NCBI RefSeq assembly: GCF_000334455.1
Contig: NZ_BANX01000008.1
Coordinates: 186,001-250,000, forward strand
From: Gordonia soli NBRC 108243
GTDB lineage: Bacteria; Actinomycetota; Actinomycetes; Mycobacteriales; Mycobacteriaceae
Direction of reading: 5' to 3'
DNA length: 64,000 bases
Below the pieces are notes generated by a model. It did no database searches, was not told where the DNA came from, and saw only the letters and a program-made list of their open reading frames with translations. This document shows, piece after piece, positions 9,641 to 20,290 of the stretch. Each line of letters opens with the position of its first letter. Position 1 is the stretch's first letter. Both the position numbers and the translations under genes were made by a program.

Positions 9641-9717
9641 CTGCTGAGATCGTCCCCGTGAGCACCCGCCGAGGGGAATGTGCCCTCGGCGGCCCGTCAG
9701 GGGGTCGATCTCAGCAG
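9641..9717. terminator. Large nested inverted repeat, probable transcription terminator
   Basis: A perfect 12-bp outer stem (CTGCTGAGATCG at 9641-9652 with its complement at 9706-9717) encloses a perfect 10-bp inner stem (CCGCCGAGGG at 9666-9675 with 9683-9692) and a 7-nt loop. There is no U tract, as is common for actinobacterial terminators, although TTTT follows at 9724. Position after a stop codon and before a tRNA promoter fits termination; the two-tier structure is unusually elaborate and could instead be a small mobile palindrome. Confidence 0.55.
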
Positions 9718-14933: not shown

Positions 14934-16571
14934 ATGCCATCGATTCGCGACCATCTCGTCACGCTGTCGGACACCGTGGGCGCACTGCGCGTCCTCCAGA
15001 GTTCGGGCGCTTTGGACTTCCGTCGTCCACGCGAGGTCGCGGCCGCCGTGAAGCGCAACGCGACCATCGGCGCACCGGCGGCGATCGTGCGGCACGGCGC
15101 CGAGAAGCATCCCGACGCGCCGGCCATCACCGACGAACACGGCACCATCTCGTTCGCCGAACTCGACCGCAACAGCAACGCGGTGGCCAACGAGCTGATC
15201 GCGGCCGGTCTCTCGACCGGCGATGTAGTGGGCATCCTGGCTCGCGACCATCGCGGCCTCGTCACCGTCCTGAGCGCCGCCGGGCGCGCCGGTCTGCGTC
15301 TGGCGATGCTCAACACCGGGTTCGGCGCAACACAACTCGGCGAGGTGGTCGAGCGCGAGAACATCGCCGCGGTCCTCTACGACGAGGAGTTCACCGATCT
15401 CATCGACACCCTCCCAGCCGAGCTGCCGCGGTACCTCACCTGGGTCGACGGCGATCGTGCGGTTCCCGAAGGGGTGAAGACCCTGCAGGCGATCGTCGCC
15501 GACGGAAACAGTTCGTCGCCGCCGGACCCCAAGCAGTGGGCAGGGCTGGTCATCCTCACCAGTGGCACCACCGGCCTCCCCAAAGGCGCTCGGCGCGGCA
15601 AGGTCTCACCGTTCACGACCGCTCTGCTGCTCGACCGGATCCCGTTCCCCCAGCAGGGGACGATGGTCATCGTCTCGCCGATCTTCCACTCGACCGGCTT
15701 TGCACTCTGGGGAGTCGGGACCGCGCTCGGCAACCACACCGTGGTGATGCGACGCTTCGATGCCGAGAAGACACTCGCGGCCCTGTCCGAGCATCGCGCG
15801 GAGATGCTCGTCGCAGTACCGACGATGCTGCACCGGATGATCGCGCTGGGACCCGAAGTCTTTGCCAAGTACGACCTCTCGGCACTGAAGGTCATCGTCA
15901 TCGCCGGGTCGGCGTTGTCGCCGACCCTGTCGGAGGCGGTCCAGGATGCCTTCGGCGACGTCCTCTACAACCTCTACGGTTCCACCGAGGTCGCCGTCGC
16001 ATCCGTCGCGCAACCGCACGAACTACGCCTCGCACCCGGCACCGTCGGGCGGGCACCGGTGTCGAGTCATCTCCGCCTGTACGACGAGAACGACCGTCCC
16101 ATATCGGGTTCCAACGTTCGGGGCCGATTGTTCGTCCGCAACGGCGCGCCGTTCGAGGGGTACACCGACGGACGGACCAAGCAGGTCATCGACGGCTACA
16201 TGTCGACCGGCGACATGGCACGGTTCGACGAGCACGGACTGATGTTCATCGAGGGTCGGGACGACGACATGATCGTCTCCGGTGGCGAGAACGTGTACCC
16301 GCTCGAGGTCGAGAACCTGCTGGCCGAGCATCCCGAGGTCGCCGACGTGGCGGTGGTCGGGGTCGAGGACGACGAATTCGGAACGCGGCTAAGGGCTTTC
16401 ATCGTCCGAGCACCCGATGCCGAGCCGCAGGTCGACGAGATCAAACACCACGTCCGGTCGCACCTGGCCCGCTACAAGGTCCCCCGCGACGTCGTCTTCG
16501 TCGAGGATCTCCCCCGTAACCCCACCGGCAAACTCGTCCGTCGGCTGCTGCCGACCGGCCCGCTGGACTGA
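14934..16571 (+). CDS. Fatty acyl-CoA synthetase (FadD type AMP-dependent ligase)
   Basis: 545 residues of the ANL superfamily. The P-loop-like LTSGTTGLPKGARRG is near residues 206-220, the adenylate-binding YGSTEVAV near 344, STGDMARF with the hinge region near 420, and the catalytic Lys in RNPTGKLVRR near the C terminus. It activates fatty acids to acyl-CoA through an acyl-adenylate. The chosen start ATG 14934 has GGGGGAGG 10 nt upstream. An alternative GTG at 14877 lies 8 nt after TAGAGT (14863-14868) and would give a leaderless product 19 residues longer. Nearby acs and crotonase genes fit lipid catabolism. Chain length is not predictable. Confidence 0.9.
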   Translation: MPSIRDHLVTLSDTVGALRVLQSSGALDFRRPREVAAAVKRNATIGAPAAIVRHGAEKHPDAPAITDEHGTISFAELDRNSNAVANELIAAGLSTGDVVGILARDHRGLVTVLSAAGRAGLRLAMLNTGFGATQLGEVVERENIAAVLYDEEFTDLIDTLPAELPRYLTWVDGDRAVPEGVKTLQAIVADGNSSSPPDPKQWAGLVILTSGTTGLPKGARRGKVSPFTTALLLDRIPFPQQGTMVIVSPIFHSTGFALWGVGTALGNHTVVMRRFDAEKTLAALSEHRAEMLVAVPTMLHRMIALGPEVFAKYDLSALKVIVIAGSALSPTLSEAVQDAFGDVLYNLYGSTEVAVASVAQPHELRLAPGTVGRAPVSSHLRLYDENDRPISGSNVRGRLFVRNGAPFEGYTDGRTKQVIDGYMSTGDMARFDEHGLMFIEGRDDDMIVSGGENVYPLEVENLLAEHPEVADVAVVGVEDDEFGTRLRAFIVRAPDAEPQVDEIKHHVRSHLARYKVPRDVVFVEDLPRNPTGKLVRRLLPTGPLD

Positions 16572-16640
16572 CTGGTTCGGGTCTGGGGCTGGGTTGGTCC
16601 GCGCTGAGTGCGCGCGGCCCCTCCCCCGGCGCTTCTGACC

Positions 16641-16707
16641 AAAATCTGCCGCCCAGCCGGGAGGCGCGTGCAATATCCACGTGGCGGGTCGCTCCACGGC
16701 AGATTTT
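16641..16707. repeat. Palindromic element, copy R1
   Basis: 67 bp bounded by AAAATCTGC and GCAGATTTT. With flanks, the terminal inverted repeat is 16 bp with one mismatch (16636-16651 with 16697-16712). The centre holds CGTGCAATATCCAC at 16667-16680, an A/T-rich core in a very GC-rich surround. The inner CGTG/CACG can form a second hairpin. Confidence 0.85.
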
Positions 16708-16769
16708 CGTCAGCGGACATGAGCCGACCGGCGCTGGTAACCAGCCAGACCAGCCCCGGCTCCCCGACC

Positions 16770-16838
16770 AAAAACTGCTCTCCCCAGCGGGGAGGCGCGT
16801 GCAATATCCACGTGGCGGGTCGCTCCGCGGCAGATTTT
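16770..16838. repeat. Palindromic element, copy R2
   Basis: 69 bp. The left end AAAAACTGC has one change from the consensus and the right end GCAGATTTT is intact. The central CGTGCAATATCCAC is at 16798-16811. It is 129 bp downstream of R1, and the spacer between R1 and R2 is largely the same as that between R2 and R3. Confidence 0.85.
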
Positions 16839-16901
16839 CGCCAGGCCAGCATGAGCCGACCGGCGCTGATACCCAGCCAGACCAGCCCCGGCTCCCCGAC
16901 C

Positions 16902-16968
16902 AAAATCTGCTCCCCAGCGCGGAGCCACGTGCAATATCCACACGACACCCCGCTCCACAGCAGATTGT
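16902..16968. repeat. Palindromic element, copy R3
   Basis: 67 bp. The left end AAAATCTGC is intact and the right end is GCAGATTGT. The centre CGTGCAATATCCAC at 16928-16941 is followed by ACACG instead of GTGG, which moves the inner stem but keeps CGTG/CACG pairing with a longer loop. It lies 132 bp from R2. Confidence 0.8.
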
Positions 16969-17140
16969 GATCAGGCAGAGACGAGTCACCGGCCCCGACA
17001 ACCACCCGAGCTCCCGCCAAAACCACCCGACCCGAGCCGCGCCTGCCAATACGGTCGACGCACCCAGCTCTCGGGCACTCCCGGGCAGACCTCTGCACGC
17101 ACCCGCGCCTCACCAGCCTGACCGGCCCACGCTCTCGGCC

Positions 17141-17207
17141 AAAATCTGCCGCCCAGCCGGCAGGCGCGTGCAATATCCACACGCCACCGCGCTCCACAGC
17201 AGATTTT
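17141..17207. repeat. Palindromic element, copy R4
   Basis: 67 bp with perfect ends: GGCCAAAATCTGC (17137-17149) against GCAGATTTTGGCC (17199-17211). The central CGTGCAATATCCAC is at 17167-17180. It stands apart from the R1-R3 cluster, separated by about 170 bp of unrelated sequence. Confidence 0.85.
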
Positions 17208-17225
17208 GGCCAGGCCGGCCGGGCC

Positions 17226-17270
17226 CTCCACAGCAGATTTCGGCCGGGCCGGCCACAGCAGATTTTCGCC
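17226..17270. repeat. Two half-copies of the palindromic element
   Basis: CTCCACAGCAGATTT (17226-17240) and CCACAGCAGATTTTCGCC (17253-17270) match only the right end of the 67-bp element. They look like truncated or degraded copies next to R4. Confidence 0.65.
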
Positions 17271-17334
17271 AGCTGAGCCCAGGCCAGCCCGAGCCGAGCC
17301 CAGCCCACACCAGACCCGCCAACCAGCCCGAGAC

Positions 17335-18621
17335 CTACACTCGCGAACCCTTGCTCATCGCCAACCCGATCGTCGCGACCATGGCGTCCACGGCGAACTT
17401 GGGTTTCACGTTGAAGTCGAGCACCTCCCGACAGTGCAGGACGGCCTCGACGCAGGTCAGCAGCTGCTCCGGCGACGCGTAGTCGGCCATCCCGGCCACC
17501 ATCTCGTCCTTGTCGGGATGCATCGCGGTCACCTGCGCACCGACGGACACGACGAGTGCATCGCGGAACAGCGCGGCCAGGTCGACGAGCGCGCGGTCGA
17601 GCACATCGCGACCGACGCGCGTGGCCCTCGACTTCTGGCGCTTCTCCAGATCCTTCAGGGCGCCCGCGGTCCCGCGGGGTGGCCGCGCGGTGCCCTTGCC
17701 GGTACCGCCGGCGCCGAGGGCGGTCTTCATCTCCTCGGTCTCGGCCTCGTCCAGCTCGGCGGCGATGGCCTTGGCCGCCTCGTCCGCCGACCGTACGAGG
17801 TCCTCGGCCGCCTTGTAGGCGGTCGCCTCGCGGGTGGCATTCCGGGCGATCCCCAGCGCCTTCTCGCGCTGTGCGGCCGCATCGGGATCGGTCGCGAGCC
17901 TCTTGGCGCGTCCGACGTGTCCACCGCAGACCGAGGCCGCCCAGGTCGCCTTGTCCGGGTCGATGCCGTCGCGCTCCACCAGCACCCGGGCGATCGCGTC
18001 CGCAGGCGGCGTCGTGAGCGCCACGTGCCGGCATCGCGACCGCAGGGTCACCGCGATGTCCTCGGGGTCCACCGACGGGGCGCACAGCAGGAACACCGTG
18101 CGCGACGGCGGCTCTTCGACGGCCTTGAGGAGCGCATTGGCGGCCTGCTCGGTGAGACGGTCGGCGTCCTCGACGATCACGACCTGCCATCGGCCTGTCC
18201 CGGGCCGTCGTGCCGCTGCCTGGACGACCTCGCGCGCCTCCTTCACCGACACGCTCAGTCCCTCGGGGACGATGTGCCGGATGTCGGCATGGGTGTGGGC
18301 CATGGCGGTCACACACGCCCGACACTCGCCGCATCCGATCTCCTCGGACTGGCACTGCAGTGCCGCGGCGAAGCACGTCGCCGCCACCGACCGCCCACTC
18401 CCCGGCGGCCCGGTGAACAGCCAGGCGTGGGTCATGGCCGCGCGTGATCCGACCTCCAGCTCGTCCGCCGTGGTCGGCGAATCGTCGTCGGCGAACATCG
18501 ACATCGCACCGGCATCGGCCTCGTCGAGTCGGTTCGCCACTCCCCGGGCGGCGCGCGCGGCCGTGACCAGGTCGGCAGCCACCGCGGTCTGCCCGATCAG
18601 CCGATCGAAGACATTTGTCAC
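17335..18621 (-). CDS. holB: DNA polymerase III subunit delta'
   Basis: 428 residues. This is a clamp-loader subunit of the AAA+ fold. The N-terminal domain has the P-loop-like TGPPGSGRSVAA near residue 70, the zinc ligands in CGECRACVTAMAH near 97, VVIVEDADRLTEQAANALLKAVEEPP (sensor and arm helix) and FLLCAPSVDPEDIAVTLRSRCR. The C-terminal part is longer than in E. coli and Lys/Ala-rich around 290-330, as in mycobacteria. The start GTG 18621 lies 6 nt from TAGGCT (18633-18628, minus strand), suggesting leaderless translation. It is divergent from the adenylyl cyclase gene, as in Rv3644c/Rv3645. Confidence 0.93.
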   Translation of the reverse strand: MTNVFDRLIGQTAVAADLVTAARAARGVANRLDEADAGAMSMFADDDSPTTADELEVGSRAAMTHAWLFTGPPGSGRSVAATCFAAALQCQSEEIGCGECRACVTAMAHTHADIRHIVPEGLSVSVKEAREVVQAAARRPGTGRWQVVIVEDADRLTEQAANALLKAVEEPPSRTVFLLCAPSVDPEDIAVTLRSRCRHVALTTPPADAIARVLVERDGIDPDKATWAASVCGGHVGRAKRLATDPDAAAQREKALGIARNATREATAYKAAEDLVRSADEAAKAIAAELDEAETEEMKTALGAGGTGKGTARPPRGTAGALKDLEKRQKSRATRVGRDVLDRALVDLAALFRDALVVSVGAQVTAMHPDKDEMVAGMADYASPEQLLTCVEAVLHCREVLDFNVKPKFAVDAMVATIGLAMSKGSRV

Positions 18622-20251: not shown

Positions 20252-20290
20252 CCGGATCACGCCCGAGGTCGGCCTCGGAGCAGTGCTCGA

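Follow-up and report, generated by a model that had tools for sequence, protein, structure and literature searches.

Palindromes of Gordonia soli and their association with a winged-helix/Vsr-like nuclease gene

The window analysed here is a 64-kb stretch of the genome of Gordonia soli NBRC 108243 (labelled G000; window positions are coordinates of this stretch), and it contains an array of long imperfect palindromes, designated family 1, between the genes fadD and holB. Elsewhere in the genome, one family 1 cluster brackets a gene (C38:73927-74781) whose predicted product is an AbiEi-type winged helix-turn-helix domain fused to a Vsr-like, homing-type nuclease. This link lies beyond the view of a preliminary description of the window, in which the palindromes had been recognised. 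Palindromes of a common plan are found beside homologous nuclease genes of other Gordonia species, and one nuclease-palindrome unit occupies different loci in different species. Our data indicate that the family 1 elements are probably non-autonomous palindromes, similar to the repetitive extragenic palindromic (REP) elements, that derive from the ends of a mobile unit in which a nuclease gene lies between two palindromes.

Nuclease genes bracketed by palindromes

The C-terminal domain of the family 1 nuclease has a predicted Vsr-type fold with conserved acidic residues (PD-(D/E)XK, I-Bth0305I-like), and the fold also matches Toxoplasma and Tetrahymena mitoribosomal proteins and TnsA of Tn7. 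Homologues are annotated as DUF559, 'very-short-patch-repair endonuclease' or 'AbiEi antitoxin domain protein', and the neighbours of the gene match GAF and aldehyde dehydrogenase (Aldedh). Unlike I-Bth0305I and other Vsr-like homing endonucleases (PDB 3r3p), the protein has an AbiEi-type N-terminus and its gene lies between palindromes; no sign of an intron or intein setting was noticed here. It also differs from the AbiE antitoxin AbiEi (PDB 6y8q), because it carries a C-terminal nuclease domain and because no AbiEii partner gene adjoins the family 1 nuclease gene, which was the only locus checked for one.

The arrangement is repeated within G000, where a 48%-identical paralogue is bracketed by palindromes of a different family and two further paralogues are bracketed by two further families, one of these genes (C59:97211-98008) lying between palindromes of family 5. 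The genome has no fewer than four nuclease paralogues, every one of them paired with a separate palindrome family, and each family that brackets a paralogue also has stray copies in G000.

The nuclease is present in 58 of 59 Gordonia genomes. To compare its surroundings with those of other genes, 52 nuclease loci from a longer list (30 returned, 20 hand-picked and 2 from G000) were examined together with 72 control genes, which consisted of 12 holB loci, one of them from G000, and 60 script-drawn open reading frames of the G018 sample. A palindrome scoring at least 12 was present within 250 bp at 34 of the 47 nuclease loci of the relatives versus 7 of the 72 controls (Fisher p=1.5e-12), and both sides scored at least 10 at 21 of the 47 loci versus a single control gene. 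In a second control that consisted of 15 DUF222 genes of G000, three scored at least 12 and none scored at least 10 on both sides. Median distances are 120 bp from the end of the upstream palindrome to the nuclease gene (39 loci) and 20 bp from the stop codon to the start of the downstream palindrome (40 loci). At the two-sided loci, 23 of 28 palindrome pairs (5 from G000) were more alike than the 95th percentile of cross-genome pairs.

The palindrome sequences vary greatly between species, and their plan recurs. The outer arms are often CAGCG/CGCTG, the apex repeatedly takes the forms GAC[ATATC]GTC and GTGG[ATAAT]CCAC, and the central five bases are 64% A/T versus 37% over the entire elements (79 palindromes). 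In Tsukamurella, two of three homologues on plasmid-labelled records have such palindromes, in a comparison made without controls. Near-perfect 75-bp palindromes lie on both sides of the nuclease genes at L264 (G040) and L262 (G050); at the 3′ end of the gene that neighbours these two loci, G000 has a family 1 array instead (L149:11290-11510).

A different enzyme as the source of the repeats was considered as well. No match to PF01797 (Y1_Tnp, the type of the REP-associated tyrosine transposases, RAYTs) was found in G000, while the same search was positive in 5 of 14 control genomes. DUF222 (13E12-type HNH) has 17 matches in G000. When arm patterns from families 1 and 3 were applied, an element was found at one DUF222 locus only (L211, family 3), and DUF222/13E12 HNH proteins were rejected as the driver of families 1, 3 and 5. 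Family 4 stands apart: five of the 15 distinct DUF222 genes have one of its copies a few hundred bases 5′ of the domain match (Table 1). The nuclease might be a passenger, that is, a homing-type gene that entered palindrome arrays moved by something else, which for family 4 would perhaps be DUF222/HNH. The Vsr-like homing fold, the family 4 copies beside DUF222 genes, and the presence of family 1 copies on both sides of two unrelated genes agree with this explanation. We nevertheless regard it as distinctly unlikely, given the four paralogues in one genome that each have a family of their own, the lack of a palindrome pair at any DUF222 gene, and the failure to detect a Y1 transposase. Moreover, the arrays did not obviously pre-exist, because samples of G018 and G025 hold palindromes almost only at nuclease genes. 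In the 400-kb sample of G018 there were no matches of families 1, 3, 4 or 5, and its own palindromes gave just one partial match and some palindrome-like coding stretches; outside nuclease loci, the 371-kb sample of G025 yielded a single 49-bp partial copy together with one weak match resembling family 5.

Dispersed copies of family 1 in G000

Family 1 is a 77-bp imperfect palindrome with the ends TGACCAmAATCTGCCG...CGGCAGATTnTGGTCA, and its consensus is TGACCAmAATCTGCCGyCCAGCGGnnnnCGCGTGCAATATCCACGCGrCnCCCCGCTGGACGGCAGATTnTGGTCA, as obtained from the 67 copies (4 in the window and 63 others) that passed the arm filters of the alignment script. The symmetric unit is thus longer than the 67-69 bp given in the preliminary description. 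The core that had been described there as invariant is exact in all four window copies, but the exact 14-mer is present in 20 of the 67 aligned copies, so that its conservation is strong and not absolute. A profile search returned 72 non-overlapping copies in 41 intergenic gaps of G000, which is a count within 41 chosen stretches (40 picked from first-pass matches, and the window) that misses copies too divergent for the first-pass searches; a hand-placed 400-kb sample of G000 contained none where about five were expected. The core-plus-arm patterns had no match in the 58 congeners, and G000 is alone in this among the 59 Gordonia genomes. The copies found elsewhere show that this is not a single local duplication, and the proposal of a dispersed, REP-like or MITE-like (miniature inverted-repeat transposable element) palindrome is supported.

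Mean pairwise identity among the copies is 73%. The most frequent base accounts on average for 94% in the core and for 86-87% in the outer arms, compared with 62-67% in the inner stem and 43% in the flanks, which points to constraint on the core and outer arms and to drift of the intervening stem. The preliminary description had held that the drifting sequence keeps its pairing, and this part of its reading was not borne out. Arm pairing was 68.1% within one copy versus 70.5% across different copies (67 copies), and cells with compensating two-sided changes numbered 19 versus 40.2 in shuffles (32 of 72 copies). The family 1 consensus is palindromic, yet single copies do not compensate. Similarly, no excess of compensation was observed for family 3 (0.665 within versus 0.657 between copies, in 28 rows of which a few are one element read from both strands) or for family 4 (0.602 versus 0.627, 38 copies).

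These observations bear on the main rival to a mobile origin, according to which the AbiEi-type winged helix uses the palindromes as operators or structural binding sites, in autoregulation of the gene, a dispersed regulon or a nucleoid-organising array, and they are not moved by the nuclease. The conserved outer half-sites and core with a looser stem resemble protein-contact blocks, the arms vary independently, the protein has an AbiEi-like N-terminus, and the upstream palindrome ends at a distance before the gene that suits such a role. On the other hand, a palindrome also occurs just past the stop codon, more than half of the occupied gaps (23 of 41) are convergent, where no promoter of a neighbouring gene is expected, the family has no pattern match in congeners, and one unit changes location. 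We therefore consider an operator or architectural role rather unlikely.

Genes and gaps were taken from a simple codon-usage gene caller, and none of the 72 family 1 copies overlaps a called gene. In addition to the convergent gaps, 14 are co-directional and 4 divergent. By comparison, sampled DNA had 242 gaps of 50 bp or longer, 32 of them convergent; this comparison is not length-matched, as the gaps that hold elements are longer because of them. The excess could mean that the dispersed copies are selected as bidirectional terminators or 3′-end hairpins of convergent genes and that the nuclease link is incidental, and the fold z-scores of the four window copies (-3.5, -1.4, -3.2 and -4.9) are in keeping with hairpin formation. 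However, just two terminator-like sites were detected in 16500-17400, both of them small hairpins inside a left arm (0.6 in shuffles), compensating changes do not maintain the pairing, and the matched palindromes around nuclease genes in many species would be left unexplained. Selection as terminators is for these reasons very improbable.

In all 23 multi-copy gaps, a single orientation was kept throughout the gap. Copy-to-copy spacings were near 120-170, 210-280 and 367 bp, and each of the 10 spacings of at least 210 bp contains a repeat of another type, family 2. Of its distinct matches, 14 of 18 lie within 52 bp of a family 1 copy, in scanned DNA that was biased towards family 1 sites. The better family 2 copies have two half-site-like repeats per arm, and no nuclease gene was found for this family. 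A gene with a Schlafen AlbA_2 domain (L148:4171-5061) directly adjoins a family 1 copy.

Possible mobility and comparison with known systems

The different locations of one unit were seen when 1.5-kb flanks were compared. What G003 and G026 have in common with G056 and G005 is the unit alone (about 1318-2458 in the locus frame, with the gene at about 1500-2328) and not the flanks, and between G003/G026 and G021 the gene and little more aligns. At the adenylate-cyclase/topA site, which is apparently empty in G000 (Table 1), G048 has a palindrome-bracketed nuclease gene and G019 has a nuclease gene with palindromes that are not clear (scores 1 and 4); this may reflect loss from G000 or gain in G048/G019. 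That arrays change in length is seen at one orthologous site, where the single downstream palindrome of G018 corresponds to two in G040, 111 bp apart.

Several results weigh against a mobile origin of the palindromes. Many nuclease loci are orthologous between species and thus look vertically inherited; at such loci it is often the upstream palindrome region that has ceased to align. No target-site duplication was evident at the empty site in comparison with distant species, whose flank DNA is ~80% identical, and 13 of the 47 nuclease loci of the relatives score below 12. The co-divergence of nuclease and palindrome is weak over all pairs (rho 0.126, with 3 of 500 permutations as high), and once the syntenic pairs are left out, the similarity of two palindromes cannot be predicted from that of their nucleases (rho 0.01, 205 of 500); the family 5 nuclease is an exception in that its closest relative (L321, 56%) also carries the closest palindrome. 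Dispersal was seen in G000 alone, because dispersed copies are nearly absent from the G018 and G025 samples. Finally, the two unrelated genes flanked by family 1 copies encode a tetratricopeptide repeat-like protein and a biotin ligase, and the DUF222 association shows that the link between family 4 and its nuclease is not exclusive, which weakens the case slightly.

The ERIC (enterobacterial repetitive intergenic consensus), Correia and other MITE-like elements are long intergenic imperfect palindromes with a conserved core. The present palindromes differ from them in that a candidate cognate gene can be named, and no target duplication was established. In comparison with MITEs, the entire family 1 element is an inverted repeat, and many nuclease genes have one palindrome on each side.

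The closest resemblance is to the REP/RAYT system, which is described as extragenic, species-specific, high-copy and clustered palindromes with a gene bracketed by cognate palindromes (Nunvar et al. 2010, PMC2817692). Family 1 is likewise extragenic, high-copy and clustered, and the nuclease gene lies between cognate palindromes in formally the same way, although another enzyme is involved. In place of a Y1/HUH transposase there is a PD-(D/E)XK nuclease of Vsr-like type that carries an AbiEi winged helix, and for this reason we regard the family 1 system as a variant of REP/RAYT and not a member of it. The palindromes are also longer (about 65-80 bp) than the 20-40 bp given for REP elements in PMC3733652, and their uniform orientation within a gap is unlike the alternating orientations of bacterial interspersed mosaic elements (BIMEs).

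If the palindromes do originate from a mobile unit, the following mechanism can be suggested. The AbiEi-type winged-helix domain would probably bind the palindrome arms, and the nuclease would probably cut at or near the A/T-rich apex. Repair or copying after the cut would then put palindromes, with or without the gene, into intergenic sites, repair between adjacent copies would yield tandem ~130-bp arrays of one orientation, and purifying selection would leave mainly the copies between convergent genes. The families, their bracketing of nuclease genes, the common plan, the changed location of one unit and the predicted fold are observations; binding, cutting and mobilisation by the nuclease, and its place as cause rather than effect, are what we infer.

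The chances seem to us about even that these units represent a new class of bacterial mobile element, in which a winged-helix/Vsr-like nuclease gene lies between 65-80-bp palindromes with an A/T-rich apex. Such a class would be common among Gordonia, with apparent representatives in Tsukamurella, would move as a ~1.1-kb unit, would in some genomes shed scores of intergenic copies per family, and would be a convergent counterpart of REP/RAYT. Small repeats would then gain a new route of spread through bacterial genomes, and DUF559, listed by Pfam as of unknown function, would gain a testable role. The results suggest that an enzyme with no relation to HUH transposases can be associated with populations of REP-like repeats, and unnamed intergenic palindromes of actinobacteria could have their origin explained in the same way. 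The pairs of paralogue and palindrome family in G000, at least four in number, would serve as a natural experiment on the divergence of enzyme and palindrome specificity. Among the accessible papers, none was found that links DUF559 or DUF559-AbiEi nucleases to palindromes or mobile elements, and none relevant was found on repetitive extragenic palindromes of Gordonia. The matches listed for RAYT with homing endonuclease or REP were RAYT/REP or unrelated papers only.

Sister families and the fadD-holB array

A looser arm pattern matched in 4 of the 59 genomes and led to family 3, with the sequence plan AAATCTGTAC...GACATATCGTC...GTACAGATTT. This family has 42 BLAST matches when both strands are counted and 27 distinct copies in the examined DNA. 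Its arm-to-arm length (65 bp) and the register of its central pentamer agree with those of family 1, and its subterminal triplet and core differ. Matches in 21 stretches of viral contigs and 9 single matches in other phyla look like chance. A repeat search at L171 and L175 gave nothing further. A lone palindrome of the same plan with a GTGG[ACTAT]CCAC apex is located in G008 (L175:1501-1562), just 3′ of an acyl-CoA dehydrogenase-like gene, and no nuclease gene was noticed nearby.

In the window, the core CGTGCAATATCCAC has exactly four matches, all on the + strand and between fadD and holB. With up to two mismatches there are still four matches versus 0.30 expected, and none of 100 shuffles reached four, so that the four related copies noted earlier are real and beyond chance. 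Part of the cluster is a local tandem duplication, as indicated by ~73 bp of flank and spacer common to copies 1-3. An Rfam search of 16300-17500 gave no matches at E<=1. The features are listed in Table 1.

Table 1. Positions of the palindromes and associated features in the window, and DUF222 loci of G000 with a family 4 copy
Feature	Position	Strand	Remarks
Family 1 palindrome, copy 1	16635..16713	+	77 bp, apex CAATATC
Family 1 palindrome, copy 2	16765..16843	+	left arm with two additional bases
Family 1 palindrome, copy 3	16897..16974	+	
Family 1 palindrome, copy 4	17136..17213	+	
Tandem flank/spacer duplication joining copies 1-3	16718..16922	+	16718-16790 versus 16850-16922, 90% identical
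Family 2 companion element, core TGCCAATACGGTCG	17000..17095	+	in the long spacer between copies 3 and 4
Solitary right half-arm, CCACAGCAGATTTCGG	17228..17243 (approx.)	+	
Solitary right half-arm, containing ACAGCAGATTTTCGCC	17251..17270 (approx.)	+	
Stray family 5 palindrome	9641..9717	-	84% identical over 75 bases to the copy upstream of C59:97211
Apparently empty site	20252..20290	.	39-bp gap between convergent adenylate-cyclase gene and topA
DUF222 genes with a family 4 copy	L205-L209 (C34, C50:86.6 kb, C33:134.7 kb, C37:44.8 kb, C24:6.9 kb)		five best-scoring

The spacing between fadD and holB is 763 bp in G000, with the array inside, and in G054 (L116) holB and fadD are almost adjacent.
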